Shown here: positions 21,674-25,049 of the stretch, piece by piece
How positions within the stretch are numbered: the first letter of the stretch is position 1
How the letters are laid out: each line of letters opens with the position of its first letter
From: Mesoterricola silvestris
GTDB lineage: Bacteria; Acidobacteriota; Holophagae; Holophagales; Holophagaceae
Reading direction: 5' to 3'
DNA: 64,000 nucleotides
Assembly (NCBI RefSeq): GCF_030295405.1
Contig: NZ_AP027080.1
Coordinates: 3,828,001 to 3,892,000 of the forward strand
Translations under genes and position numbers: made by a program
The notes under the pieces: generated by a model
The model's input: the letters and a program-made list of their open reading frames with translations, nothing else
Told to the model about the DNA's origin: nothing
The model's database searches: none

Positions 21674-23362
21674 TCAGTAGGCCTGGTCGTGCACCCCCGC
21701 CACGGCCCGCCCCGAGGGATCGGCCCGGTCCTTGAACGAGGGGTCCCAGGCCAGGGCGGCCGGGGTGGAGCAGGCCACGCTGGCCTCGAAGGGCACGCAG
21801 TTCACGGCGGTGGCCATGGGGTAGTGGGATTCGAAGAGCTGCCGGTAGAGGTAGGCCTCCTTGGTGAGCGGGGTCTTCACCGGGAAGCGCACCCCGGCCC
21901 CCCGCATCATGCCGTCGCTGACCTCCGCCTCGGCGTGGGCCTTGAGGGCGTTGATCCAGCCGTAGCCGACGCCGTCGGAGAACTGCTCCTTCTGGCGCCA
22001 CAGCACCTCGTCGGGGATCCAGCCGTCGAAGGCCTGGCGCAGCAGATGCTTCTCGATGTTGCGGGGGGTGTTGCGGGGCATCTTGAGGGAGGGGTCGATG
22101 TTCATGGCCACGTCCAGGAACTCCCGGTCCAGGAAGGGCACCCGGGCCTCCACGCTCCAGGCGGCGGCGGACTTGTTGGCCCGGAGGCAGTCGTAGAGGT
22201 GCAGCTTCGAGAGCTTGGTCACCGTCTCCTGGTGCAGGGCCGGCCCCGACGGGGCCTTGTGGAAGTAGAGGTAGCCCCCGAAGATCTCGTCGGCGCCCTC
22301 CCCGCTCAGGACCATCTTGATGCCCATGGCGCGGATCTTGCGCATCATGAGGAACATGGGCGTGGAGGCCCGGATGGTGGTGATGTCGAAGGTCTCCAGG
22401 TGGTAGATCACGTCCGACAGCGCGTCCAGGCCCTCCTGGACGGTGAAGTGGATCTCGTGGTGGATGGCGCCGATGTGCTCGGCGACCCGGCGCGCCGGGG
22501 CGAGGTCCGGGGCGTCCTTGAGGCCCACGGCGAAGGAGTGGATGCGGGGCCACCAGGCCGGGCCGCGGTCGTCCTCCTCCACCCGGTTCTCCCGGTAGCG
22601 CGCGGCGATGGCCGCGATGATGGAGGAATCCACCCCGCCCGAGATGAGGAGCCCGTACGGCACGTCGCACATGAGCTGCCGGTGCACGGCCTCCGTGAGG
22701 GCCTTGCGCAGCGCCTCGGCGTCGTAGGGCCTCGACGGCACGAAGCCGGGCTCGGCCCACTTCGGCTCGTAGTAGCGCTGGAACCCCTTCTCCTTCTGGT
22801 GCCCCTGGTAGTAGCACCCCGCCGGGAACTCCTGGATCCGCTCGCAGTGCCCGGCCAGGGCCTTGAGCTCGGAGGCCACGTACAGGTGCTCCTGCCGGTC
22901 CCAGCCCAGGTAGAGGGGCACCACGCCGATGGGGTCCCGGGCGATGAGGTAGGTGCCGTTGCGCGGGTCGTAGAGCACGAACGCGAAGATCCCGTTCATG
23001 GCGTTGAGGAAGGCCTTGGGCGACGCCTCGTCGTAGAGGTAGAGGATCACCTCGCAGTCGGACCGGGTCTGGAAGTCGTGGGGCTCCCGCAGCCCCTTGC
23101 GCAGCTCGGCGTGGTTGTAGATCTCGCCGTTGACCGTCAGGAGGTTGCCCGTGAGGGTGTCCACCAGCGGCTGGGCCCCGTGCTCCACGTCCACGATGGA
23201 AAGCCGCTCGTGGGCGAGGATGGCGTGCTCGTCGCTGAAGATCCCGCTCCAGTCGGGCCCCCGGTGCCTGAGCTTGCGGGCCATGGAGAGGGCCTGCCTG
23301 CGCAGCTCCCCGGAATTGGACCGGGCGGGATCAATGTCGAGGATGGCCAGGATGCCGCACAT
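21674..23362 (-). CDS. asnB: Asparagine synthase (glutamine-hydrolysing), class B
   Basis: The 562-residue enzyme makes asparagine from aspartate, glutamine and ATP. The start is set by the essential N-terminal Cys nucleophile (MCGILAILD), which follows directly on the ATG at 23362; AAGGA stands 6 bases upstream. The glutaminase half includes RHRGPDWSG and NGEIYNHAELR. The synthetase half has the pyrophosphate loop SGGVDSS (about residue 240) and SGEGADEIFGGY. The 163 bases in front hold a short Asn-rich leader ORF and an intrinsic terminator, so expression is probably controlled by attenuation. A short Met-led extension upstream of MCG is in frame but would block Cys2. Confidence 0.96.
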   Translation of the reverse strand: MCGILAILDIDPARSNSGELRRQALSMARKLRHRGPDWSGIFSDEHAILAHERLSIVDVEHGAQPLVDTLTGNLLTVNGEIYNHAELRKGLREPHDFQTRSDCEVILYLYDEASPKAFLNAMNGIFAFVLYDPRNGTYLIARDPIGVVPLYLGWDRQEHLYVASELKALAGHCERIQEFPAGCYYQGHQKEKGFQRYYEPKWAEPGFVPSRPYDAEALRKALTEAVHRQLMCDVPYGLLISGGVDSSIIAAIAARYRENRVEEDDRGPAWWPRIHSFAVGLKDAPDLAPARRVAEHIGAIHHEIHFTVQEGLDALSDVIYHLETFDITTIRASTPMFLMMRKIRAMGIKMVLSGEGADEIFGGYLYFHKAPSGPALHQETVTKLSKLHLYDCLRANKSAAAWSVEARVPFLDREFLDVAMNIDPSLKMPRNTPRNIEKHLLRQAFDGWIPDEVLWRQKEQFSDGVGYGWINALKAHAEAEVSDGMMRGAGVRFPVKTPLTKEAYLYRQLFESHYPMATAVNCVPFEASVACSTPAALAWDPSFKDRADPSGRAVAGVHDQAY

Positions 23363-23383: not shown

Positions 23384-23410
23384 AAAAAAAGCCCCACGCG
23401 AGCGTGGGGC
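23384..23410 (-). terminator. Intrinsic terminator in the asnB leader
   Basis: On the minus strand an 8-bp GC stem GCCCCACG/CGTGGGGC with loop CTCG (23391-23410) is followed by seven U. It lies 22 bases ahead of the asnB start codon and after the leader ORF stop, the position of an attenuator. It could also simply end the ilvA message. Confidence 0.92.
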
Positions 23411-23450
23411 GGAAGCGAGGTTGATCCGTCAGGATCACCAACTCCACCCC
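23406..23450 (-). promoter_or_regulatory. Antiterminator pairing in the asnB leader
   Basis: On the minus strand GGGGUGGAG (23442-23450), encoded by the leader codons right after the Asn and Pro runs, can pair with CUUCCGCCCC (23406-23415). The latter contains the start of the terminator stem. The duplex is 9 bp with two G-U pairs and excludes the terminator. A ribosome stalled at the Asn codons leaves it free, whereas one reaching the stop covers it. A separate UGAUCC/GGAUCA hairpin lies between. Confidence 0.65.
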
Positions 23451-23512
23451 GGGGGCGGATTATTGTTGGCGAAGTTCACGGACGCGGAAGGCATGGTGGA
23501 AGTATTGGTCAC
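23435..23512 (-). CDS. Asn-rich leader peptide of asnB (proposed)
   Basis: A 25-codon ORF starts at GTG 23512 after a G-rich run. An internal ATG at 23494 would give 19 residues. The ORF ends at TGA 23435-23437. The peptide has five Asn in 25 residues, including VNFANNNPPPGWSW at its end, with the run read from AAC AAT AAT. AAT is a disfavoured codon in this GC-rich genome, which would make ribosomes more sensitive to charged tRNA-Asn supply. It lies between ilvA and asnB and ends 25 bases before the terminator stem. I infer a role in ribosome-mediated attenuation. The peptide itself needs no function. Confidence 0.7.
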   Translation of the reverse strand: MTNTSTMPSASVNFANNNPPPGWSW

Positions 23513-23525
23513 GGTCCCCCCCAGG

Positions 23526-25049
23526 TCAAGCAAGGAAGAAGCGGTAGGCGGGATTGTCCCTCTCATCCGCCCATTCGTAGCCCAGCTCCCCCAGGAAGGC
23601 CAGGAAGGCCCCTTCGTCCTCCCGGGGCACCTCCATGCCCGCCAGCACCCGGCCCACGTCGGCGCCGTGGTTGCGGTAGTGGAAGAGGGTGATGTTCCAG
23701 CCCCGGCTCATGCGCGTCAGGAAGCGCAGCAGCGCGCCGGGGCGCTCGGGGAACTCGAACCGGTACACCCGCTCCAGTTCGGGGTTGGGGGTGAAGCCCC
23801 AGGCCAGGTGCCGGAGGTGCAGCTTGGCCAGCTCGTTGCCCGTGAGGTCCACCGCCAGGAGGCCGTGGGCGTGGAAGAGGGCCATGAGCGCATCCACCTC
23901 CTCCCGGCCCGACACCTGGATGCCCACGAAGATCCGCGCGCTGGTCGCGTCCGAGTAGCGGTAGTTGAACTCCGTGATGGACCGGTTCCCGATGAGCTCG
24001 CAGAAGGCCCGGAAGCTGCCGGGGCGCTCCGGGATGACCACGGCGAACAGGGCCTCCCGCCGCTCCCCGGACCCCGCCCGCTCCGCCACGAAGCGCAGCC
24101 GGTCGAAGTTCAGGTTGGCCCCGCTGAGGATGGCCGCCAGGTCCAGGCCCTTGCGGCCCTCGGCCCACCTGCGCAGGCCCGCCACGGACAGGGCCCCGCT
24201 GGGCTCCAGCACGGTGCGGTTCTCCGAGAAGACGTCCTTGATGGCCGCGCAGATCTCGTCGGTGCCCACCCGCACCACCTCGTCCACGGCGTCCCGGCAC
24301 AGGCGGAAGGGAAGCTCCCCCACCTGGCGCACCGCCACGCCGTCCGCGAAGATCCCCGTGTGGTCCAGCTTCACGGGCCGCCCCGCGGCCAGGGCCCGGG
24401 CCAGGCAGTCCGAGTCCTCCGGCTCCACGCCGATGACGCGGATGGAGGGCATGAGCCGCTTGATGCAGGTGGCCACCCCCGCGATGAGTCCGCCCCCGCC
24501 CACCGGCACGAAGACCGCGTCCAGCCCCCGGGGCCGCTGGCGGAGCAGTTCCAGGCCCACGGTGCCCTGCCCGGCGATGACGTCCGGATCGTCGTAGGGG
24601 TGGATGGGGGTGAGCCCTTCCCCCGCCAGGCGCAGCGCCTCGGCCGCGGCCTCGTCGAAGGTGTCGCCGTGGAGCCGCACCTCCCCGCCCAGGCGGCGCA
24701 CCGCGTCCACCTTGATGGAAGGCGTGGTGACGGGCATGACGATCACCGCCCTGCACCCCAGCTTCCGCGCGGCCAGGGCCACGCCCTGGGCGTGGTTCCC
24801 CGCCGAGGCCGCCACCACGCCCCTGGCCCTTTCGTCCGGGCCCAGCTTCGCCATGCGGGCGTAGGCCCCCCGCAGCTTGAAGGAGAACACGGGCTGCAGG
24901 TCCTCGCGCTTGAACCAGACCCGGTGGCACAGGGCCGCGGACAGGAGGGGGGCGGCCTCCAGCGGGGATTCCACGGCCACGTCGTACACCGGGGCCGTGA
25001 GCATGCCGTTGAAGACCGCGAGGCCCTCCGGATCTAGGCCGCCCTGCAT
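23526..25049 (-). CDS. ilvA: Threonine ammonia-lyase, biosynthetic
   Basis: The 507-residue PLP enzyme converts threonine to 2-oxobutyrate, the first step of isoleucine synthesis. The catalytic domain begins MLTAPVYDVAVESPLEAAPL and has the PLP lysine in PVFSFKLRGAYARM (about residue 58) and the phosphate loop PVGGGGLIAG. Two C-terminal ACT-like regulatory repeats follow (FAVVIPERPGSFRAFCELIG and YRFEFPERPGALLRFLTRMS), so feedback inhibition by isoleucine is expected, unlike in short catabolic TdcB forms. The start at 25049 overlaps the stop of the lysR gene by 16 bases. The pair is preceded by a Val/Ile leader peptide and terminator. Confidence 0.95.
   Translation of the reverse strand: MQGGLDPEGLAVFNGMLTAPVYDVAVESPLEAAPLLSAALCHRVWFKREDLQPVFSFKLRGAYARMAKLGPDERARGVVAASAGNHAQGVALAARKLGCRAVIVMPVTTPSIKVDAVRRLGGEVRLHGDTFDEAAAEALRLAGEGLTPIHPYDDPDVIAGQGTVGLELLRQRPRGLDAVFVPVGGGGLIAGVATCIKRLMPSIRVIGVEPEDSDCLARALAAGRPVKLDHTGIFADGVAVRQVGELPFRLCRDAVDEVVRVGTDEICAAIKDVFSENRTVLEPSGALSVAGLRRWAEGRKGLDLAAILSGANLNFDRLRFVAERAGSGERREALFAVVIPERPGSFRAFCELIGNRSITEFNYRYSDATSARIFVGIQVSGREEVDALMALFHAHGLLAVDLTGNELAKLHLRHLAWGFTPNPELERVYRFEFPERPGALLRFLTRMSRGWNITLFHYRNHGADVGRVLAGMEVPREDEGAFLAFLGELGYEWADERDNPAYRFFLA

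Follow-up and report, generated by a model that had tools for sequence, protein, structure and literature searches.

Ribosome-mediated transcription attenuation of the trp/his type is built around a short ORF coding for residues of the pathway's product (trpL, hisL, pheL, thrL, leuL, and the ilv leaders), accompanied by sequestering, antiterminator, and terminator hairpins that compete with one another, the terminator lying just 5' of the first gene. In Firmicutes, asparagine genes are controlled by T-box riboswitches, which permit readthrough once tRNA-Asn has lost its charge. Another described system is the uORF attenuator of Corynebacterium ilvB-II, in which a peptide rich in pathway residues is followed by a terminator (PMC10272879); according to a study that this paper cites, its leader is formed without a ribosome binding site. 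Asparagine is not included in a list of attenuators comprising trp, his, leu, thr, ilvGMEDA, ilvBN, and pheA (PMC1183508), and almost none of the attenuators predicted in Acidobacteria have a known function (PMC2965389). Leader-peptide attenuation by asparagine was not found in the literature searched; a comparative survey of attenuation, Lopatovskaya et al. 2010 (doi 10.1134/S0026893310010164), lay outside the scope of that search, and priority is not asserted.

The window analyzed here is a stretch of 64,000 nucleotides from Mesoterricola silvestris, a genome of the Holophagaceae (Acidobacteriota). On its minus strand, between ilvA and asnB, lies a leader that we regard, with a probability of roughly 0.86, as a ribosome-mediated transcription attenuator sensing charged tRNA-Asn and controlling asnB. 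Judged by sequence comparison and predicted folding, it would represent attenuation of the trp/his type with a new amino-acid specificity. It has the parts of those attenuators, the competing hairpins as predicted folds, and differs from them in its proposed sensing of asparagine, in its acidobacterial host, and in an ORF that, in the window's genus, has no Shine-Dalgarno sequence and is probably leaderless. The T-box riboswitches of Firmicutes would perform the same task as the asnB leader, but their RNA binds the tRNA itself, whereas the asnB leader is a translated ORF with Asn codons. The ilvB-II attenuator is similar in its arrangement but is rich in branched-chain residues, unrelated in sequence, and found in Actinobacteria. 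The features of the locus are as follows.

23501 to 23529, minus strand: promoter TTGACC-N17-AATACT, its -35 element overlapping the ilvA stop codon
23435 to 23494, minus strand: leader ORF MPSASVNFANNNPPPGWSW, 19 codons, ATG at 23494, stop codon at 23437-23435
23459 to 23476, minus strand: putative regulatory Asn codons, AAC 23476-23474, AAC 23467-23465, AAT 23464-23462, and AAT 23461-23459
23435 to 23472, minus strand: sequestering (1:2) hairpin UCGCCAAC..UCCGCCC / GGGUGGA..GUUGGUGA, a predicted fold
23406 to 23450, minus strand: antiterminator (2:3), a predicted pairing of GGGGUGGAG (23450-23442) with CUUCCGCCCC (23415-23406)
23384 to 23410, minus strand: intrinsic terminator (3:4) GCCCCACG CUCG CGUGGGGC UUUUUUU, assigned by folding and comparison
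21674 to 23362, minus strand: asnB, asparagine synthase B, the gene proposed to be regulated, with a conserved start (MCGIL) at 23362

The elements named in the original prediction are in place: an Asn-rich ORF of 19-25 codons ahead of asnB, an alternative pairing between GGGGUGGAG and CUUCCGCCCC, and an 8-bp stem (23410-23391) followed by seven U (T7, 23390-23384), which ends 21 bases 5' of the asnB start. The ORF reads ATG CCT TCC GCG TCC GTG AAC TTC GCC AAC AAT AAT CCG CCC CCG GGG TGG AGT TGG TGA, and an in-frame GTG at 23512 gives a 25-codon variant; its Asn density was matched by 1 of 1000 dinucleotide shuffles. The downstream gene is assigned to asparagine synthase B by NF006949 (E 4e-247), and the gene on the 5' side is ilvA, a biosynthetic threonine ammonia-lyase whose stop codon is at 23526 on the minus strand.

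A scan of 1 kb around the locus gave this promoter as its sole promoter-like site, where shuffles lead one to expect 0.1. Its -10 element ends 6 bases 5' of the leader ATG, so that the transcript probably starts at or near the start codon, and no Shine-Dalgarno sequence precedes the ORF. The arrangement TTGACS-N17-RATACT-N6-ATG is common to all five leader-bearing genomes of the window's genus, and TTGAC stands 5' of 47/47 leaders collected in this work. The sequestering hairpin shares bases with the Asn codons and with the stop codon of the ORF, and it is kept in 5 relatives. The folding energy of the window leader is 4.6 sd lower than that of shuffles. Its antiterminator is no stronger than in shuffles of the same composition (225 of 300 reach its value), and the window's own case thus rests on comparison with relatives.

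In the proposed mechanism, RNA polymerase would start at the promoter where ilvA ends, with a ribosome starting on the (nearly) leaderless ORF. If Asn-tRNA is plentiful, the ribosome would clear the Asn codons and cover the strand needed by the antiterminator; with the antiterminator blocked, the terminator would fold, and transcription would end before asnB. If Asn-tRNA is short, the ribosome would wait on the Asn codons and occlude the 5' strand of the sequestering hairpin. The 3' strand of that hairpin, thereby freed, would capture the terminator's 5' arm, allowing asnB to be transcribed.

An asnB of this kind was found in 54 of 77 Holophagaceae genomes, and 50 distinct upstream regions were read, with loci cut by contig ends left out. 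A leader ORF with a terminator is present at 46 of these 50 loci, always with Asn codons, and Asn leaders with terminators were also found ahead of asnB in two other acidobacterial families. The candidate Asn attenuator is conserved in Holophagaceae and recurs elsewhere in Acidobacteriota. A 47th leader, of type B (see below), occurs in a metagenome-assembled genome labelled Gemmatimonadetes (L080); the asnB of that locus is Holophagaceae-like (78% identity), pointing to horizontal transfer or a mislabelled bin. No leader was visible upstream of the AsnB relatives of Spirochaetes (65% identity).

The simplest alternative is that the hairpin is only the transcription terminator of ilvA and that the Asn-rich ORF arose by chance. 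The spacing would fit such a reading, as only 31 bases separate the end of ilvA from the leader ATG, both in the window and in two relatives. However, ilvA stands 5' of the leader only in L001-L003; in L004, L005, and the Geothrix-like genera another gene is found there, and the leader and terminator are retained at asnB all the same. A promoter separates ilvA from the leader, and every leader carries Asn codons. Among the 50 readable Holophagaceae loci, we looked for relatives that had kept the terminator and lost the Asn codons, and found none; the four loci without a leader (L006, L012, L013, L017) lack the terminator as well. The notion of a mere ilvA terminator, to which we give next to no credence, was therefore dropped. 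At one of the four loci (L017, in genome G035), where leader and terminator have been lost, asnB is immediately preceded by a TTGACG promoter resembling the leader promoters. The comparison supports the originally predicted Asn leader as an asnB attenuator, and from it we infer stalling, a transcriptional switch, and asparagine supply as the signal.

Each of the 47 leaders contains 2-5 Asn codons. Synonymous AAC/AAT changes occur across the leaders, while the start and stop of the ORF are kept. Asparagine accounts for 14.5% of codons over the 47 leaders, compared with 1.8% in the asnB genes that they precede, an 8-fold enrichment; no other residue is enriched above 2.5-fold. Arginine makes up 16% of leader codons, yet it is absent or nearly so in the leaders of the window's genus. 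The Asn density was reached by 0 of 1000 dinucleotide shuffles for L018, L019, L072, and L080 and by 60 of 1000 for L014, although these per-leader counts are not independent, since the leaders share ancestry.

The Asn codons of the leaders are also skewed in their third base. AAT represents 110/177 (62%) of Asn codons in leaders and 42/355 (12%) in asnB genes (Fisher p about 1e-32), and the skew to U-ending forms occurs in a genome of 70% GC. When all leaders, including those of other pathways described below, are taken together, U-ending regulatory codons (AAU, UAU, UUU, AUU) amount to 38-69%, against 6-12% in the asnB genes of the same GC-rich genomes. Asparagine is usually decoded by one single tRNA. 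With a single tRNA, the skew at Asn codons would not follow from selective charging, the theory of synonymous codon choice set out in PMC1183508.

The leaders fall into two scaffolds, type A (...NFANNNPPPGWSW) in the window's genus and type B (...NRNNNRLPRADRAWAGEG...) in the other genera, which bear no resemblance to each other apart from the Asn codons. Their design is common: a hairpin at or just 3' of the Asn run, a terminator, and, upstream of the latter, a strand able to pair with its 5' arm. The predicted switch was followed with a ribosome model that masks the RNA as far as 12 bases beyond position 1 of the A-site codon, the score being the probability that the terminator 5' arm pairs upstream before the terminator 3' arm is made. 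In type B, the predicted antiterminator probability is about 0.65-0.91 until the last Asn codon is reached; a few codons farther on, it has usually dropped to less than 0.25. In the window, it goes from 0.69 to 0.62 over the Asn codons, to 0.37 at the last, and to 0.01 at the next. Footprint folding thus predicts the loss of the antiterminator at or soon past the last Asn codon in nearly all leaders; L019 deviates, with the predicted loss several codons beyond the Asn run.

Shuffles of the intervening stretch (300 each) rarely matched this fall in L015 (0/300), L018 (1/300), L080 (0-1/300), L009 and L152 (4/300 each), L101 (9/300), and L097 (14/300), whereas in L001, L005, and L019 the fall was not exceptional. 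The structural argument, itself model-based, is therefore a good one in type B, but for the window sequence alone it is weak. For the type B antiterminator, the covariation score was reached by 0 of 500 shuffles, although shared ancestry can inflate it; the same test is uninformative for the sequestering hairpin and for the terminator, whose columns barely vary. Equilibrium folding of many type B leaders without a ribosome already prefers the antiterminator, so that low basal expression would need the sequestering hairpin to win kinetically.

Strong conservation of the type B hairpin nucleotides could also be expected of a riboswitch or T-box, in which the RNA itself would recognize a ligand or a tRNA, the ORF being incidental; T-boxes are generally known to do such a job in Firmicutes. 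Rfam models at their gathering scores gave 0 matches in the window or at six related loci, no T-box match was obtained there or in the leader stretch, and the matches of the leader stretch were to unrelated families only and far below threshold. Moreover, what the unrelated scaffolds share is only the switch design and an Asn-coding ORF, with no common aptamer, and we judge direct binding very unlikely compared with ribosome-mediated attenuation.

Attenuation by Asn codons is also indicated outside the Holophagaceae. In two genomes from other acidobacterial families, unrelated Asn leaders with terminators precede asnB, namely MKRRNSNNATSNSLNTNFSATGGLLP in G298 (0 of 1000 shuffles reach its Asn density) and MMHTRSNSVNPNRGNSCAAGVCL in G147 (2 of 1000), and their predicted antiterminators weaken as the ribosome reaches or just passes the last Asn codon. 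Two further leaders (L124, L126) are doubtful cases, each with just two Asn codons and with 88 and 39 of 1000 shuffles reaching them. The majority of other-family acidobacterial asnB genes, seven in number (L096, L098, L099, L100, L119, L125, L235), lack an Asn leader. In genus g10, which does not have this asnB, a leader MLKTSLTRQNNRNNANPSTDRAWGGEALV (model match E 2e-13) is located ahead of a 417-residue protein akin to archaeal asparagine synthetase A (NF005054, E 8e-28, under its cut-off), with structure matches to PDB 3p8t (E 2e-10) and also 1nnh. This AsnA-like protein is non-homologous to AsnB and is presumed, on these resemblances, to have asparagine synthetase activity. Asn leaders precede it or its homologues in three genomes (G014, G022, G017), those of the homologues containing 5 Asn codons in G022 and 6 in G017.

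Matches to the type B scaffold also occur before genes of other pathways. A type B RNA model (R1), searched in the same genomes, matched before DAHP synthase with E 1e-10 to 1e-15 (...HRYYWFPRADRAW...). Weaker matches were obtained before pheA (FFAFSF), class II DAHP synthase (FYYFGF), ilvA (IIPIGIAII), and proC/proB (PRPSQPP); matches above E 0.001 were picked partly by leader-gene agreement, so their number is no test. Downstream genes were named by Pfam for representatives, and by resemblance only for ilvA and some pheA and pro cases. At least three Asn codons are found in 38 of 42 distinct asnB leaders and in 0 of 39 leaders of other pathways. Codon identity in the leader follows the downstream pathway.

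The individual loci can be listed as observations. Putative Tyr/Trp/Phe attenuators (e.g., MTPRFHRYYWFPRADRAWHGEGPA) before DAHP synthase in Geothrix-like genomes (L148-L151, L154-L157) are homologous to the asnB leader, with a nearly identical hairpin scaffold. Phe leader ORFs with terminators stand before pheA (L153, L163, L190, L192, L193, L198, L200), a Phe/Tyr one before class II DAHP synthase (L160), and Ile ones before ilvA (L188, L189, L191, L199, L201). Pro-rich leader ORFs with terminators (e.g., MSALRLQTPRPSQPPCGAPAGEGLS) precede proC (L158, L159, L161, L164, L196, L197, L202, L204, L206) or proB (L162, L194, L195, L203, L205), which suggests proline-specific attenuation there. In the window's own genome (G000), a Phe/Tyr leader MTAHSATFTFTPAARRYYYGGGGGLVEAWSPNS with a terminator precedes a chorismate-mutase gene (L239), and the mechanism would thus be at home in it. 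A model of the window-genus scaffold (R2) revealed no clear paralogues in that genus, matches besides asnB having only E > 0.09.

The run of three prolines after the Asn codons had been put forward as a stalling motif in itself. If the nascent peptide (Pro-Pro-Pro, with EF-P dependence) rather than hungry Asn codons caused the arrest, its presence in 5/5 leaders of the window's genus would be accounted for. It is a fixed feature of type A only, where its codons make up the C-rich arm of the sequestering hairpin. It is missing from the leaders of G298, G147, and the Geothrix-like genomes, all of which keep their Asn codons, and the leaders of other pathways exchange Asn for the amino acid of their own pathway. 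The idea is not supported by these comparisons, and peptide-driven arrest seems highly improbable.

The proposed arrest at hungry Asn codons raises the matter of what the codons would report. If translation slowed down in general, or if the Asn-tRNA sensed were a product of GatCAB, asnB would respond to something other than free asparagine. GatB is encoded in 16/16 genomes tested, so that transamidation may be a route to Asn-tRNA, but AsnRS (TIGR00457, above cut-off) is encoded in all of them too, and the codons match the pathway, a match that a general sensor would not need. We consider such a signal unlikely and retain charged tRNA-Asn, as a measure of asparagine supply, as the preferred reading. 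The asnS products of G013 and G017 score 621-631 bits against TIGR00457 and those of the remaining genomes about 430-446, which suggests a different sub-type of AsnRS in these two.

Taken as a family, these leaders probably represent a modular attenuator scaffold of Holophagaceae that was duplicated and re-coded for Asn (asnB, AsnA-like), for Tyr/Trp/Phe (DAHP synthase), and perhaps for Phe, Ile, and Pro (pheA, ilvA, proC/proB), a scheme that we favor with some reserve and in which Asn, and possibly Pro, would join the amino acids with leader-controlled biosynthesis. Leaders of the same scaffold with swapped codons amount to natural codon-swap experiments, isolating codon identity as the determinant of specificity. 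If the proposed reading of the asnB leader is true, asparagine joins the amino acids sensed through leader-peptide attenuation, and the mechanism is placed in a phylum whose predicted attenuators had almost no assigned function.
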